Origin: a virus
IMG/VR virus record: IMGVR_UViG_3300026321_000014
Coordinates: 1-28,854 of that record
DNA: 28,854 bases
Strand: one strand, 5' to 3'
Below are positions 571 to 27,483 of the stretch, piece after piece. Position 1 is the first letter of the stretch. Every line of letters begins with the position of its first letter. The translations under genes were made by a program, and so were the position numbers. Under the pieces are notes generated by a model. It was not told the origin of the DNA. It ran no database searches and saw nothing but the letters and a program-made list of their open reading frames with translations.

Positions 571-1094
571 GTCATGTACTCGATTTCCTAGAAGACTTTA
601 CTAATGATTGGGTTAATTGGTTAGGAGAAACCGATAAAGATCATATTGGTACAGATACCGTCTATGAAGGAGCACGATGTCCCTTTGCAAAGAAGGCTCG
701 TGATGAAGGTAGGATTAAGTATGTAAAGGTATATGATTACTTTCGTGCTTATGACTACTGGGAAGTTGTGAGTAAAGAATGTGATGAGTTTGATGATACT
801 TATGATGTTGTCTTGGTTGTTGCGAAGAGTAATGCAAGTCATATAAATCCAGACATGATCGGCGGCGGCGTTGACGGACTCAACACGTTTCTGAATCAAA
901 AGGGAAAAGACATCTGGTTATTATGTAAAATAGATGAGATGTATACTATAGTAATGGTACAAAGGCTTACTGCATTGGATAATGCAAAGAAACAATTAGA
1001 GTCCAAAGGATATTACGTTGGTCATTATAGTGAACAACAAATGGATAAGGTTGTAGATGGCCGTGCTAGGTATAGGGAGAAACTAGGAAAATGA
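567..1094 (+). CDS. Conserved-looking hypothetical protein with CPFA motif, 175 aa
   Basis: The protein has an N-terminal acidic/aromatic helix, then a Cys-containing motif (R-C-P-F-A-K-K-A, about residues 37-44), and alternating beta/alpha-like segments such as VKVYDYF and DVVLVVAKS. A glycine run from (GGC) codons near 861-870 follows. The C-terminal half contains hydrophobic strands and a helix rich in K and Q. I cannot name the family with confidence. The single conserved-looking CPFA segment suggests a small enzyme or binding domain, but no catalytic set is obvious. It begins in an ATGA overlap with the preceding gene and ends in an ATGA overlap with the first oxygenase-like gene, so it is likely co-translated with it and may act in the same process. 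Confidence 0.65.
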   Translation: MSHVLDFLEDFTNDWVNWLGETDKDHIGTDTVYEGARCPFAKKARDEGRIKYVKVYDYFRAYDYWEVVSKECDEFDDTYDVVLVVAKSNASHINPDMIGGGVDGLNTFLNQKGKDIWLLCKIDEMYTIVMVQRLTALDNAKKQLESKGYYVGHYSEQQMDKVVDGRARYREKLGK

Positions 1095-1756
1095 AATCGT
1101 GTGTTAAAGAAGACTTACCTAACTTCGGTATACTCCAATGTAAATTGGATCAAGAAGAAGTAGATTACCTGTGGAAACTAGTTCATAAGTACGCACCTGA
1201 TTCTGAATGGGATGGCAATAGACTCCTTAGTATAAAAGATGATACAAAGAAACAATTCTCTATTAATGATGATGATTTATATTTTCAAGACAATTGTTTA
1301 ATGCCTGCTGCGGAAAAGTATTTTAAGGAATACGGAGCTCCATTTAAATTTAAAACAAGTCATTACCACCATTTAGCTTTCAGTAGATTCTGGTGTCGTG
1401 CATCTAATGAAGGTGACTATCAAAGTATACATGACCATCAAGGAGTTTTTACCTTTGTAGTATGGTTAAAGATACCATTTGATCCAGAAGTAGAACGTGC
1501 GGTACAGCCAGGGTTCAGACCTGAGGCTGGAGATTTTGTTATAACTTACCCTGATACGTGTGGTCAACTACAGAAACGTAACTTTATATTGAGTGAAAGT
1601 GCAGAAGGTAAAATGTTATTCTTTCCTAGTGATATGAATCACATTGTATATCCACATTATACAACAAAAGACTATCGTATTGCCCTTGCAGGAGATGTTG
1701 TATTGGATAGTGATCACAGACTTGAGTTGATTAATCCTACAACTAAAGAAATGTAA
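1091..1756 (+). CDS. Putative 2OG-Fe(II) oxygenase-like protein, copy 1
   Basis: This 221-residue protein has the pattern of small phage 2-oxoglutarate and Fe(II) dependent oxygenases of the double-stranded beta-helix fold. Candidate metal ligands are H114 and H116 in S-I-H-D-H-Q and H184 in F-P-S-D-M-N-H. R196 in Y-R-I-A-L-A-G-D is the candidate 2-oxoglutarate-binding arginine. The segments EAGDF-VITY and MLFFPSDMNH resemble the core strands of the family. The family hydroxylates protein or small-molecule substrates, but the substrate here is unknown. A paralogue lies downstream at 2083. Both share L-P-N-F-G near the N-terminus, the TFVVWLKIP/SFVVWLKIP strand and the C-terminal LAGD. The start is fixed by the ATGA overlap with the preceding gene. 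Family assignment is inference from motif order. Confidence 0.72.
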   Translation: MKSCVKEDLPNFGILQCKLDQEEVDYLWKLVHKYAPDSEWDGNRLLSIKDDTKKQFSINDDDLYFQDNCLMPAAEKYFKEYGAPFKFKTSHYHHLAFSRFWCRASNEGDYQSIHDHQGVFTFVVWLKIPFDPEVERAVQPGFRPEAGDFVITYPDTCGQLQKRNFILSESAEGKMLFFPSDMNHIVYPHYTTKDYRIALAGDVVLDSDHRLELINPTTKEM

Positions 1757-1941: not shown

Positions 1942-2086
1942 CGTCTTTATAGGCGACAACGAAATCATGTCAGAAATCAGTGAACATGATTTAAAATACA
2001 AATTAGAGTTTTTAAGAGCGTATTTTACTCATTATCCTGATGATGAACTTAGAAATGAAGAAATTAAAGTGGTTAAAAATAAATGA
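1928..2086 (+). CDS. Tiny hypothetical protein, 52 aa
   Basis: This 52-codon frame begins M-N-T-Y-N-V-F-I-G-D and ends in a lysine-rich tail. The middle (LKYKLEFLRAYFTHY) is a strong amphipathic helix, and the flanks are acidic. It overlaps the upstream 49-residue gene by 14 bases and ends in an ATGA overlap with the second oxygenase-like gene, so it likely couples their translation. A GGCGG at about 1914-1918, nine bases before the ATG, could serve as ribosome-binding site. It resembles the many short helical proteins of T4-like cyanophages. Function unknown. Confidence 0.5.
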   Translation: MNTYNVFIGDNEIMSEISEHDLKYKLEFLRAYFTHYPDDELRNEEIKVVKNK

Positions 2087-2751
2087 ACATTGAAAAAAGG
2101 GTTTTGCCCAACTTTGGAGTACTAGATGTAACTCTGGAGAGGGAACATACTGACCATCTTTACCATCTTATAGAGAAATATGAGATTAATGCTGATGCAG
2201 GTAAACAACAATGGATGTTAGTTGATGATGAACATCGATTTAAACAGTCAGTTCTTGATCCTGCCATCAATTATTATGTAAAAGAGTGGGGTTTTCCTAC
2301 AAGATTAAAGTCAACACACGTTCATGACCTTACATTTCAGAAATTCTGGGTAAATTCTACTACAAAAGGTCAATATCAAGCATTACATAACCACGATGCT
2401 GTGTTTTCTTTCGTAGTGTGGTTAAAAATACCCTCTGTTGCTAGTGAAGAACAACAAGTTCAGGATACAATGCACCCTGAAGCAGGTGATTTTGTACTAA
2501 CTTACTCTGATATAACAGGAAAACACTGTAAAGTTAACTGGAAATTAGAAAAACAGTACAATGAAGGTCATATGTTACTGTTTCCGAGTGATTTGTTTCA
2601 TGCGGTATACCCACATTTCTTAACTGATGAGAAAAGAATATCTTTAGCTGGTGATATTGCAATAAACAGTAATAAGATAATGGATATTTACGACCAAGGA
2701 ATGTTGTTAGGCACTGAAAACAGTCAAGAATTTCTGTCCAAAGAAGCTTGA
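2083..2751 (+). CDS. Putative 2OG-Fe(II) oxygenase-like protein, copy 2
   Basis: A 222-residue paralogue of the gene at 1091. The matching residues are H102 and H104 in A-L-H-N-H-D, H173 in P-S-D-L-F-H, and R185 in K-R-I-S-L-A-G-D. The EAGDF-VLTYSD and MLLFPSDLFH strands also line up with copy 1. The residue between the two first histidines is N here and D in copy 1, so the pair shares an H-x-H version of the metal motif. The proteins differ most in the N-terminal third and in the loop after the WLKIP strand, where substrate specificity could differ. It starts in an ATGA overlap with the 52-residue gene. The last base is followed by a 68-base gap containing a sigma70-type promoter, so this gene probably ends the cluster. 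Confidence 0.72.
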   Translation: MNIEKRVLPNFGVLDVTLEREHTDHLYHLIEKYEINADAGKQQWMLVDDEHRFKQSVLDPAINYYVKEWGFPTRLKSTHVHDLTFQKFWVNSTTKGQYQALHNHDAVFSFVVWLKIPSVASEEQQVQDTMHPEAGDFVLTYSDITGKHCKVNWKLEKQYNEGHMLLFPSDLFHAVYPHFLTDEKRISLAGDIAINSNKIMDIYDQGMLLGTENSQEFLSKEA

Positions 2752-16584: not shown

Positions 16585-19500
16585 ATGCCAAGAACTACGC
16601 CTGGAGCCGGAGCGTTATTTAAACCAGCTTTTAACTCCACTTACGGTGTTCACCAGATACAAGTTTTAGCTGGTGGATCTGGATACGCTAAGACGGATCC
16701 CCCAAAAATAGAAATTACGGGTACAACTTCACCTACTGTTGAAGGTGTATTTTATCCTGTCATTAGTGGTGTCGGAACTATATCCGATATTATTATCTTT
16801 AAAACGGGTGTTGGATATTATCCTGTTTTTAGTACATCTACACAATCTCAGGTTGTTGTAGAGAGGGGTGCTTTTGGTACTATATCAACAAGTCACAGTT
16901 CTGCTGGTATTGCTTATTCTGTGTTTTCTGGTGATTACAATATTGTAGATGATAATATCTTTTTCAGCGATGCTCCATATGGTAAAACTGGCCCAGTCGG
17001 ACTCGAAACTGGATCTTCATTTGCTGGCAGAATGTTCTCCAGAAAGTTGGATCCTTATGATACTTCTGACACTAATACAATTCTAGATGACATATCATTA
17101 GAATTTACAGGTATTGCAGGAACTCAGTTCACTCTAACAGAGAATAATGGAATAGTTACTTCAGTTTATAATAATGTTAATACTGGAGTGGATATTAATA
17201 ATAATCCATTCGTTTTAATCAATAATGTAGTACAAACGCCAGGACTTGATTTTGAAATTGTAGATAATGTTTCAAATAAGATCAATTTCTTAAGTGGAGT
17301 CCCAAGAGCAGGAAGAATTAATAAAGTAGGACTTCAAACTGGTTCTGGTTATTACTTACCAATGAAGGCTGCTGTAAGGGTTGGTGTTGGATCAACTGGT
17401 AGTCTTGAGTTTGTTCGGATAGAAGGTAAAGGTCAGGGATATAGAACAGTTCCAGAAATTAGTGTTAGATCATCTCAAGGTTATGGTGCAAGTTTAACTG
17501 CATATCTTGGAACTTCAGCAGGAAGCGCAGTTGCTATTAGTACTGCAGATTATAATCATATTGCTGGTATTTGTACTTTTAGTACTGGTGCCGCATCTCA
17601 TGGATTTGAATCGGAGGATAGAATTAGATTAACTGGTCTAGGATTTACTTTTACTCCCGTATCTGCTGCTAGGAATGTCAATACTTTTGGATATGATTAT
17701 ATAACGGGAATTGCTACCATTGGAGTTACTGGTGGTCACTATATTGGTACAGCAGAAAATCAAAGTAGGAATTTATTAATAACACAAGTACAAGTCTATA
17801 ATGGTATTAGTACATATACTTTTAGAGAGGATGCTTATCCAATTACTAAAGTTATTGATGCTAATAACGTACTAGTTAATCTTGGCATAAGTACACAACC
17901 ATTAGCTTATGTTAGTGGTGGATTGACAAGAGCTGGTGTTGATACTGCCATTCTGGATGGTAGAAATGTAGTTGGTTTTGATGTAATTGGTGTAACTACA
18001 AATACATTTGAAGCCTTTATTGGTATCTCAACTTTTGCACATCAATATGTAACTGGTGGTGTAGTTAATAGAGCAGAAGCAGGAATAGTTACTAATTTTT
18101 CTATCGTAGAAGGTGGAACTGGATTCTATGCACCAAGGACAATTTCATACATTAATGGAACTCCTTCAAATGGTATTACGACTCTTACTGCTTATGGTAA
18201 TCAAGCTGGTAATACAGTTGCGATATCATCAGTAAACTACGATTACATATCTGGTGTTGCCACAGTTACTTCTGGAAGTGGACATGGATTAACAACATCT
18301 AGTGTTGTTAAATTGGCAGGTATTGCATTTAGTACTGGTCAGGGTGATATTGTATTCCCATCTGATGCACAGAAGTATTATGGTGTTAGAAGTGTTGCAG
18401 ATGTTAATAATTTCACGGTTAATATTGGTGCAGCACTAGAAACAACTGGTATTCATACACACCATGCTGGAGTGGGTTCTTTCATTGCCTATGAAGGACA
18501 TGGATTGGAGACTGATGACTTTGTTTATGCAAGTGGTGTTGCTGTTACATTCACAAGTGCTCCTTCAGTAAATGTTGGTGATGTAGAGTATGATGAAGTT
18601 ACTGGTATTGCAACAATTACTACTAGAAAAAATCATAATCTTAAAGAGGATGATTGTGTTATTCTTTCTGGTATTTCATTCACTTGTAATTACGATCCAG
18701 CATTAGGAATATCCAGTGCTGAGTATGATAACACTACTGGTGTTATGACAGTAACAACTTCTGCTGCTCACGGTTATAAGGTGGGTAAAGATGTTGTATT
18801 TACTGGTTTAGGATTTACATGTCAATTAGATAATGGTGCAAACCAACACTATTATCCAAGAAGTCGTTCTAGTGCATATGATAGTTCACTTCCTGTTGTA
18901 GGTATTGCTGGTACAACAGTTACTATTGATGTTGGATTTGCTCCTCCAAAGGATCAATTCACTCATGTATTCGATAAGGCAAATGCTGGTGCATTAATTG
19001 GTGGTGGTGCTTATAATCATAGGTACATTCGTTCTGAAGAAGGTGCTCTATTAACTGGTGGAGACTTTACACATAAGTTTATTAGTGCTACTGCTGATTC
19101 TACATTTAGTGGTGGTAATTACGAACACAAATTTGTTAGTGCTGAGGCATATAAGACTCTAAAAATTGGTGGTGATTATGCCCACACATTCGTTCCAGCA
19201 AAAACGGTTGCTGATTGTATCGATATAGTTGGTGGTGGTACAACTACACCCACAAATGCAGATTATGTTCCTAGTACTGGTGCATTAGTTTTAACAGTCC
19301 CTGGCCACGGATTATCAGGGCCAACATCCCATACAATAACAACTGCAAGATATAATGCTCTTGTTGGAATATTAACTATAACTGTTCCTGGCCATAACTT
19401 TGCCAATGGTGATCAAATTAAGATTGATAACGATGCCATTGGATTTAAGTGTTCAATGGATAGTAATTCCACCACTCATACATATCCACGTTCTACCGAT

Positions 19501-22500
19501 CCTGTAAGTAATCAGTGGTTACCAATATCAAATAAGACAACAGATGATTTTGAAGTATTCGTTGGTATGAGTACCATTGTTAATTACACTGTTTCTGATG
19601 CTCTATACACACCTTCTGTAGGTGTGATGACCATGACTATTGGTACTCATGATCTATTATCAGGTTCTAGTATTAAAATTAAACCATCTTCACTTGGATT
19701 TAAGTGTGAGATGGATAGTCAGACATCTACTAAGTATTATCCTCGTGCTTCTGACCCTGTTTATGATACTGCAGTTCCTATTACTGGTATTGGATCTACT
19801 ACAATAACTGTTCAGGTTGGTGTTACAACACAAGTCAAATACAACATTAGGTTTGCAGATTATAACCCTGTTGCAGGTATTATTACAGTTTCTCTTGATA
19901 GACTTCATAACTTTGTTGTTGGAGAGAGTATTAAATTCAAAGAAGGTTCTATTGTCTTTAAATGTGCTAAAGATGCTTTCCAAACTAATCATTTTTATCC
20001 AAGACCACAAGATCCTTTCTACAATACATCAGTTCCTATTGTTAGTTGTGCTGGTACAATATTCACAGCTCAAGTTGGAGTAACAACTCTTGGAAACTTT
20101 ATACACTCATTCGTTCCAAACCAAGGTGTTGCAGTTGAGGGTGTAATTTCTGGTGGTGATTATGGACATACATTTAGTGGAGTGGGAACAGATGCCGTAA
20201 TTACTGGTGGTGTTTATGACCATACATTTGAATCTGCAGTTGCTGGCGGACTTAAGAGACCTTCAACAAATGTTGAAATATCCAGAGGTGGATTAACATT
20301 TAAGTGTGCAAAAGATAATTATGCTACTGAACATGCATATCCTCGTGCTACAGACCCAGCATATAATACAGAACTAGGAATTGTTGACACAACAACTGAT
20401 ACTTTTGAAGTTAGAGTTGGTGTATCGACTGTTCAAGAAAGATCAATCACAGATGCGAGTTATAACGCTGCCACAGGTGACTTAGTGATGACAGTTGGAT
20501 CTGGTCATTCATATACTTCTCCAACCTCACACACGATTACAACCGCAACATATACTCCTTCTACTGGAGTAATAGAACCTACTATCGCAAATCATGGGTT
20601 CCTTAGTGGAGATTACGTTAATTTTGGTACTGGATCAGTCTCATTTAAGTGTGAAGAAGATGATTATGCAACTCCTCACGCATATCCTCGTTCATCCGAT
20701 CCATATGCTAATCGATGGTTACCAATTTATAATGTAGGAGTTAATACATTCTCCGTATTTGTTGGCGTATCTACAAACACTACTGAACATATATTTTTCG
20801 TTGGTCTTGCTGGAGGACTGAAGAGAGCAACTGATACTGTTGGAATTAACACATCATCAATTGTGATGACATGTTTCAGGGATCAACATAAGACAAAACA
20901 TGCTTATCCTCGTCCTAATGATCCTATTGGTGGTAATAAGAGTGTTGGTATTGGAGCAACAACTGATACTACTCTTACAATCAATGTTGGTGTATCAACG
21001 ATTAAGAATTACTCAATAACAACTGCTGCCTATACCGCAAGCACTGGTATTGTAACTGTATTCTCTAACCGCCATGGATTGAGTGGTAATTTAACTCAAA
21101 CAACTAATTTTGCTACTTATAATGCCGCTGTTGGTATTATGACCATCACAACAAATGGTGATCATAATCTTACAACTGGAGATAGAGTTCAATTTGATAG
21201 AGACTCTATTAACTTCAGATGTTACATGGATGGTAGGAAATCAATTAAGAGTTATCCAAGAGCATCAGATCCAGCAAATCAAAAATGGTTGCCTGTTGAA
21301 AGGGTTGATGATGATAAATTCTCTGTTCAGGTGGGTGTATCTACTATCGTTACTTACAGTCCTACAAGTGGATCTTATAATCCATTCACAGGATTGTTGA
21401 CTGTAGATATTGGTGAACATTATCTTAAGAAAGGAAATGCAGTAAAACTTAAGACAAGAGCCTTTAAGTTTACTTGTGGTCAAGATAATCACGCTACAAA
21501 TCACTTCTATCCTAGAGCAACTTCTATCAGTGGCCCAGATCCTGCTTATAATACTGCAGTTAAGATTACTGGCACAACTGATACAACCATTACATTAGAT
21601 GTTGGTAAGTCTTCTAACCAATCAGATCATATCTTTATTTCTTCTTCTGCTGACTCTGTTATTGCAGGTGGTAATTATGAACATACATATGAAAATTCAA
21701 TATCTAATAACATAAAGATTGCAAGAGATACTATTGGGTTAACAACAAACTCTTATACCTTCCAGTGTTCTCAAGATAATTATGGAACAGATCATACTTA
21801 TCCAAGATCGGGTTATGCTCATACATTTGTAAGTGCAACAGCTGGTGCTGCATTTACTGGTGGATCATATGCACATAATTTTGTAAGTGCTGGTGCAGAA
21901 TCAATTTATGTTACTCAAAGTGGTGCTAAATTAACACCAACAAATGCTGCCTATAATGCCGAAACAGGCAACATGGTTCTGACATTTGGATCCAATCATG
22001 GTTTGGTTGCAGGTACTAATACAGTTGGTATTGCAACTAATTCAATTACCTTAACTTGTGATAGAGATAATCACGCTACAAATCACGCATATCCAAGGTC
22101 AACCGACCCAGTTCACGGTCTTACAAACGTTGCAATTGGTGCCACTACACTTGACACAATTACGGTTAATGTAGGTGTTAGTCAGATTGTATCTAAGAAT
22201 ATAACTGCTGCGACTTATGATCCTGAATCTGGATCAATGGATATCACCATTGCCAATCATGGACTTCTAGTTGGTCAACCAATTGGTATTGTTACCAATT
22301 CAATGACATTTACATGTGCTAGAGATTCACATGCAACTAATCACACATATCCACGTAACAGTGATCCATATCATAATAAGAACATTTCTATTGGGGCAAC
22401 TACTGCCAATACAATAACACTCTTTGTTGGTAAATCTAACACTGGAGATCCTCTGAATAATCAGGAAATTGGTATTCTAACTTCTACAGCAGATACGTTC

Positions 22501-25500
22501 ACATTCAACGTTGGTATAACAAGTCTGGTTAAGTACAATATAACCACATCCACTTATACTCCTTCCTCTGGTATTGTCACATTTACAACTGACAGTTCTC
22601 ATGGATTAACTACTGCCACAAGTGTTGGTATTGCAACTGGTGGACTGATCTTCTCTTGTGAGATGGATCAACATGCCACAGAACATGCATATCCAAGACC
22701 AGGCTTTGCACATACATTCGTTAGTGCAACATCTGGTGCAGTAATTCAGGGTGGAAATTATGCACACACATATGTAAGTTCCCTTGCTGGTGTTGCATTT
22801 ACTGGTGGTAATTACAAACATAACTTTGTCAGTGCTGCTGCAAATTCAGTTCATGTTGGTTCTTGGACTGGAACGAAATTGACCCCTAACGACGTATCTT
22901 ATAATGCTGTTACGGGTAACATGACTATGAAGTTTGCTTCTGCACATGGTCTTGTTGCTGGTAGTAATACAGTTGGAATTGCAACAGGTGGTATTGTTCT
23001 AACTTGCGATAGAGATAACCATGCAACTAATCATGCATATCCAAGAGCATCTGACCCTGTACATGGTCTTGTAAACGTAGCAATTGGAGCGACAACTCTT
23101 ACTAGTATCACGGTTAACGTTGGTGTTTCTACAATCGTTTCTAGTGGTATTACAACTGCAACATATGCCCCTGCAACAGGAGATATTGAGTTAACAGTTG
23201 GATCTGGACATGGATTACTTGCACAGGGTCAAGCGACTGCAACAAACGCAAATTATAATCCTGCTGCTGGTATAATGACTGTGACTGTTGCTGGTCATGG
23301 ATGGGAAGTTGGTGAGTATGTTAAATTTGAACCAGATGCATTTGTCTTTACTTGTGGTATAGACACTCATGCAACACCTAAGGCATATCCTCGTCCTAGT
23401 GATGATTACTATAATACTTGGTTGCCTATACTTGGCACAGACACAAATACATTCTCTGTTCAAGTTGTTAAGAATCCTCCTTCAACTAGTGTAGGTGTAC
23501 ATACATTCGTTTCTTCTGCAACTAATGGTGTTAAGAAGGCGAATAATACTGTTGGTATTCATACTCGTTCAATTACAATGACATGTGCTAGAGATGCACA
23601 TGCAACTAATCATGCATATCCTCGTGATGCTGACCCAATTAATAACAAACAGGTTGGAATTAAGGCAGTAACCTCCACAACAATAACAATCAATTGTGGT
23701 ATTTCTACTCTTGTCACATATAACGTTACCGATGCATCTTACAATGATGTAGTTGGAGATCTTGAGTTGACAGTTGGTGCTGGTCACGGATTCGTTGTAA
23801 ATGACAACGCTAATGTAGGAATTGCTACAAACGCCTTGACATTTACTTGTGCTCAAGATGCTCATGCTTCAAATCATACTTATCCAAGAACAAGTGATCC
23901 AATCCATAAGAAGGTAGTTTCTATTGGATCAACTAGTGATACTACCATTACATTAAATTGTGGTGCAGCTGGTATTGACGATCCTGCTCACTCTGAAGGA
24001 CTGAAACCTACTAAGATAACATCAAATACTATCAGTCTAAATGTTGGTGCAACAAACCAAGTTAATTTCAACGTTGGTGGTGCAACATATCAAGAGTCTG
24101 TTGGTGTAATGACAATGAGTATAGGAACTCATAGTCTTGAAATAGGACAGAACGTTAAGTTAGCAAGTGAGTCCCTATACTTCAAGTGTTCTAGAGATGG
24201 TAATGCAACTTCTCATGTATATCCAAAGGGAGGAGATCCTTGGTACAATGGGTCTGTTATTACTAGAGTTATAGACGCTAATAACATTGAAACTAATGTT
24301 GGTGTTTCCACTGTTCCAACACATTACAATGCAGGTGGTACTATTCAGGGTGTTATTATTGCTCCAAGAGAATTTAATAATTCAGCAAGTGGAGTAGACT
24401 ATGCATCTGGTGGTACATTTGTAGATAAGATTATTGATAATAAGAACTTTGTTGTTAATGTTGGTATTTCTACTGTAGATCACAACTACAACAGAGGCGG
24501 ACTTTCACAACAAGGTAAGAGAATGGCTTCCTCTATTGAGAAAGGATTCTCTGGATTTGATGTTATAGAAAAGATAGACAGTGCTAACTTTAGAGTTGAT
24601 GCTGGATTAACTACCGAAAGGTCTCTATTTACGAGAGGTGGTAGGATAGACAAACCAGTTTATGTTGATATTGCAGAACCTGATCCATATTTCAATAGAA
24701 AACTTGAATATGTTTCTGGATCAACAGGTCTTGGAACAGATTCTAAGGTTGATATTCGTATCAATGTTGATGGTCAGATTGGTGAATATAATATTCTTGA
24801 AGAAGGAACTGCATTTAAAGTTGACGAAGAGTTAACTGTTTCTGGTATTGCTACAGACCCAAGAGTTGGCATTCTTACCGAATTCCAATTAAAAGTTGTA
24901 GAACTAGAAAGTGATACTTTCTCTGGATTCTATCCTGGCCAGTTCATCTTATTTGATGATATTTCTTCATACTTTAATGGACAACGTAAGAAGTTTACTT
25001 TATCAGTAACAACTGCTGGTGAAACAGAGATTTTGAGTCTTAAGACTCTGCCTGGTAGTGATATGGATATTACTAATAATATCTTCATTTACATTAATGA
25101 TATTCTACAGACTCCACAATCTTCTTACACATTTAAGGGTAGTAGAGTTATCTTCACTGAGGCACCAAAACCAAACTCTAAGTGTTCTGTATTTTACTTC
25201 AGAGGATCTAAGAGAGACGTTGAAACAATTGATCCAGTACAATCAGTTAAGTCTGGTGATGTTGTACAGATTAAAGAGAATAAATTAGATCTACTTGATA
25301 TTGATCAGTTCCAAAGAACTACTAAGAGAATAGTTGCTTCTGACCTCTTAGAAACATTCACATATGACAGTATTGGAATTAATACTGCTCAGGATGCTGA
25401 GAGACCACTAGCTTGGATTAAACAAAGACAGGATCAGATTCTTTCTGGTGTATTGATACCAAAATCAAGACCTAGTTTGAAGAGTAAAGTTCTTCCTACT

Positions 25501-27483
25501 ACAAGAATTATTAAAGCTGTTGGAAATTTAGATGATAGAATTCATGTAAGTAATGCTTTCCCAGTATTCACAAATATTGATAAACTACTTCAAGCTGAAA
25601 GAAATATACAAATCTTTGACGATGGTGATGTTGAGCCAGGTATTGTAACCTCTATTGTTTCTACCTCATCTAGTATATCCTCTTTGGCTATCAGTTATGG
25701 TGGAACTGGATACAGTAATCTTGCAAGTCCTAATGTCGCCATTTCAAGTGCGTTAATTACTCGTAAAGATCCTATTAAGAATTGGAAATTTGATGGAATT
25801 AGTGGTGTTACTCAGGCAGTTGAATTTAAGGCTATAACTCAACAAGCACCAATTGTTGCTGTTGGATCAAGTAGTTACTATATCAATACTAAGAGTGGAA
25901 CATTCTGGGAAAGAGGACAGATTGGATTTGGTGGAACTATCACCTTTAATGGTGTTGGTATGGGATTCAGTTATGCCAATCAAGGTAGTCTGAATGTTAT
26001 GGCTGTAGGTGATTATGCATCTATGGCAAGAGCAGTTGCAATTGGTAACAGTATTGGTACTTGGTCTGCTCTAGATCTTAAAGAAGAAAGGACAATTCCT
26101 GCCATCAACCAAACAGGTAAATTTGATAGTACCTATGCAGGTAATTTCCAAGATGTTCTTTGGGAAGGAACTAGAAATACATGGGTTGCTGTTGGTGCTG
26201 CTGGATCTATCTTTACTGCTGTTGGTCTTACAACCGCAGAGGCATTTAGTCAGTATTCAGGAACTTTACAACAATTAAACTCTGTATGTTATGGTCAATC
26301 GGAATTTGTCGCAGTTGGAAATGGTGGTGTAGTTATTGCATCTAATGACGGAACTGGATGGGGAGATAAGATCAGTAATACTGCATATGATTTGAATGAT
26401 ATCATCTATGATGGAAATAGATTCATCTGTGTTGGTGATAATGGTACTATTGGTATTTCTACCAATAAGAATTACTGGCAACCTTGGAGTCAACAGTTAC
26501 CTGCAGGAACAGTTCACCCCGCTACATTTGACTTTAAGACACTCAAGTTTATTGATGGAATTTATATTGGAATCAGTACTGTTGGTGACATGTACTATTC
26601 ATTCGATCTTGCAAACTGGAATAAGAGAGAAGTAAATCATACTAATGAGATTAGAGATATTGTTAATACTCCATTTGGTGATTTTGCAAGTAGTAGAATT
26701 CTCGCAGTTGGAACAGGAACAACACAATTCTATGCAGATCCAGTTGTTAACAGGGCAGTTGCAACTTCTTCTGTTACCGCTGGTGTATTAACTGCACTTA
26801 CAGTAACAGATGGTGGATTTGGTTATCAAGTTGGTAGTTCTCCTCCAGTTATTATCGAAACTGATAAGGCGAAACAGGAGAAAGTTTATTCAGTTAATGC
26901 CAAGGGTGATTTTGGTGACATTGTAGGAATAAATACATGGTTGCCAGGTTCCGCTGGTGTTCTGCCTAGATTAGCATTTACTCTAAAATCACAATATAAT
27001 GATAATACTAATTTGGGTTATGGTTATTCATCACTAAACGCTCTTGGTGTTGAGTACTCTGGACTTGAGAAAGGTGATTATTTCACAATTTATGATAGTT
27101 CTCTAGTTGTTGGACATGCACTAACTGGTATTACAACTTCTAGTGGTGCAAATGAACCTGTTGGTATGGTTACTGCTGGTGATTATCTTGGTGGAGTGTT
27201 CAGAGTAGAAGAAGTTACAAATGGAGATGCTGTTTCTGGAATCGTAACTGTCACTTGTGCTTTCCAACCAGGCCCAACACCTTATGGAAACAACCATATT
27301 CAGGTAGGAGTTGGTACAACTGCAACTACTGATACCTTCTGGGGTAAATATAGTTGGGGTCAAATCTACGGATATCAGAATCGTGGTTCAGGAAATCCAA
27401 AAGAATTTTTCGTCAATACAAACAATGGTAATGTAGGATTATCTACTGCTGCTGTAGTTTCCAGATTAAAACCACTAACTTAA
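16585..27483 (+). CDS. Giant repeat-rich virion protein, putative long fibre (3632 aa)
   Basis: Residues 1-320 contain several strand-GGxGY modules and a unit reading NPFVLINNVVQTP (about 207). Residues about 320-2640 are a repeat array. It includes 18 copies of C-x2-D-x5-H-x-Y-P-R (Cys at residues 746 to 2535), about 12 copies of a 20-residue GG-Y-x-H-x-F-V-S-A unit, and many copies of a Y-x3-T-G-x-M-T-x-T then H-G-L unit and a T-x-N-V-G-V-S-T strand. Residues about 2640-3060 hold another NNIFIYINDILQTP unit (2831). Residues 3063-3382 look like a beta-propeller, with repeats ending V-A-V-G-x-x-G and T-N-K-N-Y-W. A GGFGY module follows at 3410. It sits between gp7 and gp8 behind a late promoter, which implies a baseplate-associated virion protein. 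Host binding is likely but inferred. I know no T4 counterpart. Confidence 0.75.
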   Translation: MPRTTPGAGALFKPAFNSTYGVHQIQVLAGGSGYAKTDPPKIEITGTTSPTVEGVFYPVISGVGTISDIIIFKTGVGYYPVFSTSTQSQVVVERGAFGTISTSHSSAGIAYSVFSGDYNIVDDNIFFSDAPYGKTGPVGLETGSSFAGRMFSRKLDPYDTSDTNTILDDISLEFTGIAGTQFTLTENNGIVTSVYNNVNTGVDINNNPFVLINNVVQTPGLDFEIVDNVSNKINFLSGVPRAGRINKVGLQTGSGYYLPMKAAVRVGVGSTGSLEFVRIEGKGQGYRTVPEISVRSSQGYGASLTAYLGTSAGSAVAISTADYNHIAGICTFSTGAASHGFESEDRIRLTGLGFTFTPVSAARNVNTFGYDYITGIATIGVTGGHYIGTAENQSRNLLITQVQVYNGISTYTFREDAYPITKVIDANNVLVNLGISTQPLAYVSGGLTRAGVDTAILDGRNVVGFDVIGVTTNTFEAFIGISTFAHQYVTGGVVNRAEAGIVTNFSIVEGGTGFYAPRTISYINGTPSNGITTLTAYGNQAGNTVAISSVNYDYISGVATVTSGSGHGLTTSSVVKLAGIAFSTGQGDIVFPSDAQKYYGVRSVADVNNFTVNIGAALETTGIHTHHAGVGSFIAYEGHGLETDDFVYASGVAVTFTSAPSVNVGDVEYDEVTGIATITTRKNHNLKEDDCVILSGISFTCNYDPALGISSAEYDNTTGVMTVTTSAAHGYKVGKDVVFTGLGFTCQLDNGANQHYYPRSRSSAYDSSLPVVGIAGTTVTIDVGFAPPKDQFTHVFDKANAGALIGGGAYNHRYIRSEEGALLTGGDFTHKFISATADSTFSGGNYEHKFVSAEAYKTLKIGGDYAHTFVPAKTVADCIDIVGGGTTTPTNADYVPSTGALVLTVPGHGLSGPTSHTITTARYNALVGILTITVPGHNFANGDQIKIDNDAIGFKCSMDSNSTTHTYPRSTDPVSNQWLPISNKTTDDFEVFVGMSTIVNYTVSDALYTPSVGVMTMTIGTHDLLSGSSIKIKPSSLGFKCEMDSQTSTKYYPRASDPVYDTAVPITGIGSTTITVQVGVTTQVKYNIRFADYNPVAGIITVSLDRLHNFVVGESIKFKEGSIVFKCAKDAFQTNHFYPRPQDPFYNTSVPIVSCAGTIFTAQVGVTTLGNFIHSFVPNQGVAVEGVISGGDYGHTFSGVGTDAVITGGVYDHTFESAVAGGLKRPSTNVEISRGGLTFKCAKDNYATEHAYPRATDPAYNTELGIVDTTTDTFEVRVGVSTVQERSITDASYNAATGDLVMTVGSGHSYTSPTSHTITTATYTPSTGVIEPTIANHGFLSGDYVNFGTGSVSFKCEEDDYATPHAYPRSSDPYANRWLPIYNVGVNTFSVFVGVSTNTTEHIFFVGLAGGLKRATDTVGINTSSIVMTCFRDQHKTKHAYPRPNDPIGGNKSVGIGATTDTTLTINVGVSTIKNYSITTAAYTASTGIVTVFSNRHGLSGNLTQTTNFATYNAAVGIMTITTNGDHNLTTGDRVQFDRDSINFRCYMDGRKSIKSYPRASDPANQKWLPVERVDDDKFSVQVGVSTIVTYSPTSGSYNPFTGLLTVDIGEHYLKKGNAVKLKTRAFKFTCGQDNHATNHFYPRATSISGPDPAYNTAVKITGTTDTTITLDVGKSSNQSDHIFISSSADSVIAGGNYEHTYENSISNNIKIARDTIGLTTNSYTFQCSQDNYGTDHTYPRSGYAHTFVSATAGAAFTGGSYAHNFVSAGAESIYVTQSGAKLTPTNAAYNAETGNMVLTFGSNHGLVAGTNTVGIATNSITLTCDRDNHATNHAYPRSTDPVHGLTNVAIGATTLDTITVNVGVSQIVSKNITAATYDPESGSMDITIANHGLLVGQPIGIVTNSMTFTCARDSHATNHTYPRNSDPYHNKNISIGATTANTITLFVGKSNTGDPLNNQEIGILTSTADTFTFNVGITSLVKYNITTSTYTPSSGIVTFTTDSSHGLTTATSVGIATGGLIFSCEMDQHATEHAYPRPGFAHTFVSATSGAVIQGGNYAHTYVSSLAGVAFTGGNYKHNFVSAAANSVHVGSWTGTKLTPNDVSYNAVTGNMTMKFASAHGLVAGSNTVGIATGGIVLTCDRDNHATNHAYPRASDPVHGLVNVAIGATTLTSITVNVGVSTIVSSGITTATYAPATGDIELTVGSGHGLLAQGQATATNANYNPAAGIMTVTVAGHGWEVGEYVKFEPDAFVFTCGIDTHATPKAYPRPSDDYYNTWLPILGTDTNTFSVQVVKNPPSTSVGVHTFVSSATNGVKKANNTVGIHTRSITMTCARDAHATNHAYPRDADPINNKQVGIKAVTSTTITINCGISTLVTYNVTDASYNDVVGDLELTVGAGHGFVVNDNANVGIATNALTFTCAQDAHASNHTYPRTSDPIHKKVVSIGSTSDTTITLNCGAAGIDDPAHSEGLKPTKITSNTISLNVGATNQVNFNVGGATYQESVGVMTMSIGTHSLEIGQNVKLASESLYFKCSRDGNATSHVYPKGGDPWYNGSVITRVIDANNIETNVGVSTVPTHYNAGGTIQGVIIAPREFNNSASGVDYASGGTFVDKIIDNKNFVVNVGISTVDHNYNRGGLSQQGKRMASSIEKGFSGFDVIEKIDSANFRVDAGLTTERSLFTRGGRIDKPVYVDIAEPDPYFNRKLEYVSGSTGLGTDSKVDIRINVDGQIGEYNILEEGTAFKVDEELTVSGIATDPRVGILTEFQLKVVELESDTFSGFYPGQFILFDDISSYFNGQRKKFTLSVTTAGETEILSLKTLPGSDMDITNNIFIYINDILQTPQSSYTFKGSRVIFTEAPKPNSKCSVFYFRGSKRDVETIDPVQSVKSGDVVQIKENKLDLLDIDQFQRTTKRIVASDLLETFTYDSIGINTAQDAERPLAWIKQRQDQILSGVLIPKSRPSLKSKVLPTTRIIKAVGNLDDRIHVSNAFPVFTNIDKLLQAERNIQIFDDGDVEPGIVTSIVSTSSSISSLAISYGGTGYSNLASPNVAISSALITRKDPIKNWKFDGISGVTQAVEFKAITQQAPIVAVGSSSYYINTKSGTFWERGQIGFGGTITFNGVGMGFSYANQGSLNVMAVGDYASMARAVAIGNSIGTWSALDLKEERTIPAINQTGKFDSTYAGNFQDVLWEGTRNTWVAVGAAGSIFTAVGLTTAEAFSQYSGTLQQLNSVCYGQSEFVAVGNGGVVIASNDGTGWGDKISNTAYDLNDIIYDGNRFICVGDNGTIGISTNKNYWQPWSQQLPAGTVHPATFDFKTLKFIDGIYIGISTVGDMYYSFDLANWNKREVNHTNEIRDIVNTPFGDFASSRILAVGTGTTQFYADPVVNRAVATSSVTAGVLTALTVTDGGFGYQVGSSPPVIIETDKAKQEKVYSVNAKGDFGDIVGINTWLPGSAGVLPRLAFTLKSQYNDNTNLGYGYSSLNALGVEYSGLEKGDYFTIYDSSLVVGHALTGITTSSGANEPVGMVTAGDYLGGVFRVEEVTNGDAVSGIVTVTCAFQPGPTPYGNNHIQVGVGTTATTDTFWGKYSWGQIYGYQNRGSGNPKEFFVNTNNGNVGLSTAAVVSRLKPLT
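18820..24231 (+). repeat. 18-copy protein repeat C-x2-D-x5-H-x-Y-P-R
   Basis: Cys codons of the copies begin at 18820, 19450, 19705, 19963, 20305, 20650, 20872, 21220, 21475, 21766, 22057, 22315, 22657, 23005, 23353, 23584, 23848 and 24187. C, D and Y-P are present in all 18 copies. H is present in 15 and replaced by K in three (copies 3, 8 and 15). R is present in 17, with K in the last. The internal spacing never changes. Many copies continue as x-x-D-P. The repeat is coding and lies inside the 3632-residue protein. Confidence 0.9.
18994..22847 (+). repeat. About 12 copies of a 20-residue GG-Y-x-H-x-F-V-S-A repeat
   Basis: Clusters of this unit occur at about 18994-19200 (four in tandem), 20150-20240 (two), 21665-21700 (one), 21812-21900 (two) and 22703-22847 (three). 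The core is glycine(s), an aromatic residue, any residue, His, any residue, Phe or Tyr, then often V-S-A. Units run back to back every 19-21 residues. The clusters sit between, and never inside, the Y-P-R motifs. Degenerate copies lacking the glycines also appear, for example near 18958 and 20095. Confidence 0.75.
25771..26730 (+). other. Beta-propeller-like region of the giant protein
   Basis: Residues about 3063-3382 of the 3632-residue protein contain repeated blades. Each has a hydrophobic strand ending in V-A-V-G or C-V-G-D, a G-x-x-G turn, and a later aspartate/asparagine-tryptophan strand (T-N-K-N-Y-W, D-L-A-N-W, S-N-D-G-T-G-W). This is the pattern of BNR/Ycf48-like propellers. At least four or five blades are visible; the exact number needs a structure prediction. 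Confidence 0.6.

Follow-up and report, generated by a model that had tools for sequence, protein, structure and literature searches.

Giant proteins of unknown build take up a large share of the structural genes of marine T4-like cyanophages. The closest described relatives of the protein analysed here are SSSM7_103 of S-SSM7 (Lipsvirus, Kyanoviridae) and the gp7 proteins of P-SSM2 and P-SSM4, which share with it an arrayed domain, the motif of that domain and the gene neighbourhood, and in P-SSM2 the C-terminal region as well. They carry 12, 7 and 11 copies of the motif, respectively, as compared to 18 in the present protein. Our analysis defines a main building block of these giant proteins, with the testable motif C-x2-D-x3-[TS]-x-[HK]-x-Y-P-R. 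The number of domains differs between close relatives and the array occupies different genes; arm length and domain content thereby become a trait to set against host range, and the domain is a small soluble target for structural work.

The window is the whole of the 28,854-base virus record IMGVR_UViG_3300026321_000014, a partial rather than a complete genome. Its gene order is that of a marine T4-like cyanophage (gp25, gp6, a YHYH-domain ORF of 3000 residues, here the YHYH ORF, a connector-like ORF, the array ORF and gp8), and S-SSM7 has the same order, with SSSM7_103 as the orthologue of the array ORF (blastp E 0). The first 81 residues of the array ORF are 41–45% identical to syn9_103, SSM1_104 and PSSM4_082 (blastp E 4e-17 to 1e-15) and probably serve as a virion anchor, which occurs in a different gene of the baseplate region as well. 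By blastp, P-SSM2 gp7 matches both the array (E 3e-90) and the C-terminal region (E 1e-36, at its own C-terminal end); the latter, residues 2731–2979, is present in 387 phage records and is matched in part at the C-terminal ends of Syn9 gp101 (E 3e-14) and SSM1_102 of S-SM1. Sharing the array and the C-terminal region, the array ORF belongs with the gp7-type giant structural proteins of cyanophages.

The arrangement differs from that of P-SSM2, where the array lies within a single gp7 of 5195 residues. Residues 7–2605 of this gp7 match the YHYH ORF of the window, and residues 3443–4847 correspond to the array plus the C-terminal region in the 3632-residue protein; the array and C-terminal part of the giant gp7 are therefore found here on a separate protein with another anchor, a domain swap. 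The YHYH ORF, which is also homologous to S-CREM2 gp122, has its P-SSM2 homologue in the N-terminal half of gp7, and so the gp7 core lies there and not in the array ORF. The array ORF directly precedes gp8, yet gp6 is already followed by the ORF homologous to half of gp7. No similarity to T4 gp7, a protein of solved structure, was detected, as neither a profile of the C-terminal region (A7) nor the whole protein finds a baseplate chain in the PDB. The S-SSM7 orthologue is labelled as baseplate wedge initiator, and the name gp7 for the array ORF comes only from orthologue labels and gene order. In 39 loci, the motif ORFs are located directly upstream of a YHYH ORF and not beside gp8.

The motif array

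The ORF is uninterrupted for 3632 residues, and the pattern C-x2-D-x5-X-x-Y-P-X matches it exactly 18 times between residues 746 and 2548 (18820–24228 of the window; Table 1); about 1e-5 matches are expected from composition alone. All 18 copies fit C-x2-D-x5-[HK]-x-Y-P-[RK] exactly. The Cys, Asp, Tyr and Pro are constant throughout, the His is replaced by Lys in three copies (residues 1041, 1546, and 2257), the final Arg by Lys in the last copy, and Thr or Ser occupies position C+7 in 17 of the 18. A sequence-only reading of the window had described 18 motifs of identical spacing in which C, D and YP are never replaced and H is replaced only by K, three times; the exact pattern match bears out both statements. 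Its definition of the motif as C-D-H-YPR holds, although it missed the Thr/Ser at C+7 and did not mention the Lys of the last copy.

Table 1. Features of the window, with coordinates and the basis of each assignment
Feature	Position	Strand	Basis
2OG-Fe(II) oxygenase gene (phrog_81)	1091..1756	+	
2OG-Fe(II) oxygenase gene (phrog_81)	2083..2751	+	
YHYH ORF, 3000 aa	6517..15519	+	homology
Repeat-array ORF, 3632 aa	16585..27483	+	open frame; orthologue in S-SSM7
N-terminal 81 aa, probable virion anchor	16585..16827	+	blastp
Motif 1 CQLDNGANQHYYPR	18820..18861	+	pattern match
Motif 2 CSMDSNSTTHTYPR	19450..19491	+	pattern match; modelled singly and in tandem
Motif 3 CEMDSQTSTKYYPR, K type	19705..19746	+	pattern match; modelled in tandem
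Motif 4 CAKDAFQTNHFYPR	19963..20004	+	pattern match; modelled in tandem
Motif 5 CAKDNYATEHAYPR	20305..20346	+	pattern match
Motif 6 CEEDDYATPHAYPR	20650..20691	+	pattern match
Motif 7 CFRDQHKTKHAYPR	20872..20913	+	pattern match
Motif 8 CYMDGRKSIKSYPR, K type	21220..21261	+	pattern match
Motif 9 CGQDNHATNHFYPR	21475..21516	+	pattern match
Motif 10 CSQDNYGTDHTYPR	21766..21807	+	pattern match
Motif 11 CDRDNHATNHAYPR	22057..22098	+	pattern match; unit 80% identical to unit 14
Motif 12 CARDSHATNHTYPR	22315..22356	+	pattern match
Motif 13 CEMDQHATEHAYPR	22657..22698	+	pattern match
Motif 14 CDRDNHATNHAYPR	23005..23046	+	pattern match; duplicate of unit 11
Motif 15 CGIDTHATPKAYPR, K type	23353..23394	+	pattern match
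Motif 16 CARDAHATNHAYPR	23584..23625	+	pattern match
Motif 17 CAQDAHASNHTYPR	23848..23889	+	pattern match
Motif 18 CSRDGNATSHVYPK	24187..24228	+	pattern match
Conserved C-terminal region	24775..25521	+	blastp

Compared with the orthologue L024, the motif codons show 32 synonymous and 2 non-synonymous differences, as against 851 and 1182 elsewhere in the ORF (p=2e-10); for the S-SSM7 orthologue the ratios of synonymous to non-synonymous differences are 26:2 at the motif and 899:830 elsewhere (p=8e-6). Codon variation at the motif is thus essentially synonymous and therefore points to strong purifying selection on the protein, not to recent copying of DNA. On the strength of the same variation we rejected the idea that the motif is constant through recent duplication of DNA; only units 11 and 14 resemble recent copies, their identity (Table 1) marking a recent duplication. 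The spacing between motifs ranges from 59 to more than 200 residues, and a candidate degenerate copy is located at residue 701 (FTCNYDP). Residues 807–2085 (window ~19003–22839) also hold nine copies of another short repeat, GG-x-Y-x-H-x-[FY], after which V-S-A comes in most cases. This repeat is located between the domains, either singly or in tandem at 18–19 residues.

The domain in marine viruses and its fold

A search with one unit matched 321 phage records, all of which bear names of marine cyanophages or marine viruses, and many IMG/VR contigs. The prokaryote genomes gave a single match, a marine contig binned as Euryarchaeota (PBPH01000042.1) with an ORF of 27 motif copies; homologues of gp6 and gp8 were not found on the stretch of it that was examined, and the contig may belong to a phage and have been misbinned. 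An initial profile from 12 units of the window was too diverse for database patterns, and tighter alignments succeeded. The 237 loci, which were collected by way of the motif (motif-free domains may occur elsewhere), yielded 2,360 distinct domain copies, 1,991 of which span the motif without gaps. Among the latter, the Cys is kept in 1990, Pro in 1991, Tyr in 1979, Arg in 1948, and Asp in 1914, and position C+9 is His in 1477, Lys in 455, and Gln in 29. A second Cys is present in 148 of the 1991, and about 93% have exactly one. The flanks, described in the sequence-only reading as varying widely, are more constrained than this suggests: the motif lies at the centre of an ~80-residue domain in which Y3, G8, H17, F34, and D52 are near-invariant, with T/S43 a further strongly conserved position.

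The bias of a motif-containing profile was avoided by searching with the two flanking halves only. In these paired matches C-x2-[DGNSQE] is kept in 1408 of 1413 and YP in 1405 of 1413. Short-turn variants among the exceptions retain the Cys (FTCTQAGGNHSYPR); in one domain with a further shortened hairpin (FSTNSGNVTYPS, locus L231), C, D, H, and R are lost jointly.

We found no significant Pfam or NCBIfam model for the domain, no solved relative in the PDB by sequence and no significant PDB fold match; Foldseek with three units gave no usable match in the PDB. The earlier failure to name a known domain thus agrees with the searches, and a description of the motif was not found in the open-licence papers searched. 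BFVD returns the same domain, chiefly in cyanophage structural proteins. In PHROGs, whose matches to the array comprise up to 19 stretches, phrog_1276 (unknown function), phrog_5342 (tail fiber), phrog_701 (virion structural), and phrog_2885 (baseplate wedge) match strongly, but they are broad multi-domain clusters, none of which describes the motif or its role. The domain is real, widespread in ocean viruses and apparently undescribed; the protein itself is of a known kind.

The nearest folds are to be taken as leads only. For one unit the top fold match is the phage phi92 endosialidase 4hiz (probability 0.96), but with E 0.23, a TM-score of 0.48, and 15% identity; the endosialidase beta barrel PF12195 matches 14 of 131 units at E≤1 (best 0.0023), none significantly after 131 tests. 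The whole protein matches the E1 FCCH domain PF16190 with E 2.5e-5 and 24.7 bits, under the cut-off of 29.5, and several ubiquitin-activating enzyme E1 chains are among the fold matches, all with structural E-values >1; a C-D-H hairpin common to E1 FCCH and the motif domain was not found. A PDB sequence match to iota-carbonic anhydrase (E 6e-4) was rejected, being the sum of three 40-residue pieces with an independent E ≥10 each, two of which miss the Cys.

The AlphaFold2 (AF2) model of one unit (pLDDT 91, pTM 0.77) is all-beta over ~80 residues, with strands at 3–7, 12–16, 27–29, 35–39, 47–50, 61–63, and 71–75; the motif runs from strand 4 through a short helical turn into strand 5. Three units in tandem gave pLDDT 88 and pTM 0.48; the individual units are thus modelled with confidence, with their placement relative to one another uncertain. 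Mean-field DCA of 1,765 domains (Meff 710), which is independent of AF2 although the sequences are related, pairs columns 33–46 and 35–44 within the motif hairpin, and elsewhere in the domain 11–70, 13–68, 63–70, 26–58, and 24–60. In this register L32, F34, C36, H45, and Y47 share one face of the hairpin, which is 80% hydrophobic, with 33, 35, 44, and 46 on the opposite face (18% hydrophobic). C, H, and Y would thus point inwards from a single beta-hairpin, their burial being deduced from the strand register. Modelling consecutive units had been proposed with the earlier reading as a check on whether C, D, and H cluster; C and H lie on one face and D in the turn, so that the three are probably near each other.

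Readings of the motif

D39 is lost in 3 of 1477 H-type domains as compared to 63 of 455 K-type domains, and T/S43 in 21 of 1477 as compared to 184 of 455. The domains are related by descent and raw p-values for this covariation overstate the evidence; both contrasts with H45 persist, with an odds ratio of ~32 each, once similar sequences are down-weighted. C36 does not follow the losses at D39, T/S43, and H45.

We regard as the best explanation, and on balance a probable one when taken as a whole, that the motif is a structural lock of the hairpin and that the tandem domains form a modular arm or fibre extending from the baseplate. Each motif is central to a seven-strand domain of ~80 residues, where it forms the hairpin of strand 4, turn and strand 5. 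The Cys, the His or Lys and the Tyr, together with the preceding Leu and Phe, would face the core, and the side chains of Asp, Thr/Ser, and His would make a hydrogen-bond network that holds the turn, the exact bonds being putative. Lys may substitute for this network, and the inner-face Cys would meet a separate, more stringent requirement. Tyr-Pro-Arg and the following Asp would fix the exit of the hairpin. The lock would be conserved because every domain requires it. The tandem domains would make up a flexible string, lengthened and shortened by unit duplication and carried in this phage lineage on an N-terminal baseplate anchor beside gp8; this arm or fibre would presumably reach the cyanobacterial surface. 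The sequence-only reading had suggested a structural role, and the domain array supports a structural unit that recurs along a tail-associated protein. Counting against a simple lock is the Cys, whose conservation is unusually strict for a purely buried residue; such a Cys normally tolerates an occasional Ala, Ser, or Val.

A ligand site is an unlikely alternative. The turn of the motif would bind a ligand, most likely cell-surface glycans, and the domain would be a carbohydrate-binding module, with avidity from its copies; this would suit the variable copy number, as in adhesin repeats, the endosialidase as best structural neighbour and the weak endosialidase beta barrel matches in Pfam, although the fold and profile signals are both below significance. 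Ligand sites of host-range proteins usually diversify, whereas the motif is the most constant part of the domain, and the inward position of C, H, and Y favours packing over contact.

The earlier reading had offered a metal site alongside strand-locking, and strand-locking is the better of these two guesses. In a metal site, Cys, Asp, and His, perhaps joined by a further conserved His in the HG motif, would bind iron or zinc, and an arm would hold up to 18 ions, as in the Ferrojan-horse idea for phage tails. C, D, and H are together at one end of the hairpin, the L231 domain loses them along with R as its hairpin shortens, and iron sites have been proposed in phage tail fibres (PMC11705849). 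The putative ligands are, however, neither kept nor lost jointly: His is Lys in 23% of domains (weighted), Asp is then often lost, and the Cys still stays. Once a site has lost its other ligands, the Cys should be free to change, and because the Cys persists when D and H are gone we consider a metal site quite improbable.

About as improbable is a stiffening of the arm, after release into oxic seawater, by disulfides between domains or chains, or by another covalent link. The near-absolute invariance of the Cys, independent of D or H, would fit such thiol chemistry, and with one Cys in most domains any bond must be inter-domain; the strand register, however, places the Cys on the hydrophobic inner face, and the irregular motif spacing makes a regular inter-domain bond hard. 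We keep a chemical role of the thiol as a rival because the Cys never becomes Ala, Ser, or Val. That the Cys is chemically active in some form, for example by linking domains or chains covalently or as a redox switch, is distinctly unlikely; if true, the baseplate arms of each virion would be lined with many identical reactive thiols. We know of no phage fibre that is hardened or triggered by such thiols. An intra-domain disulfide was rejected on account of the single Cys of most domains, and bilin attachment, which in phycobiliproteins uses C-x-R-D, on account of the residue before D (M, K, Q, L, or R) and the all-beta fold.

Copy number and place in the virion

The same gene in complete close relatives has 12, 16, 17, and 18 copies of the motif. 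Syn9 has none and S-SM1 has two. Other contigs have at least 28 copies, in ORFs truncated at the start of the available sequence; such ORFs, with 28 copies in 5300–6100 residues, occur in L155, L116, L118, L121, and L158–L168.

The cluster of SSM1_102, which has the two motif copies of S-SM1, was detected in purified S-SM1 virions as T4-GC969 (PMC3037559), and S-CREM2 gp122, which is homologous to the YHYH ORF and has no motif, is a virion protein (PMC10665884). Most likely the array protein acts as a modular arm or fibre at the baseplate, because the chain of small domains is dispensable, varies in copy number and is located on a baseplate protein. A fibre, as first proposed from the sequence, is likely; virion proteomics covers the two-copy homologue (PMC3037559), and the array protein may contact the host surface. 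Upstream of the baseplate block of the window lie two adjacent 2OG-Fe(II) oxygenase genes (Table 1).
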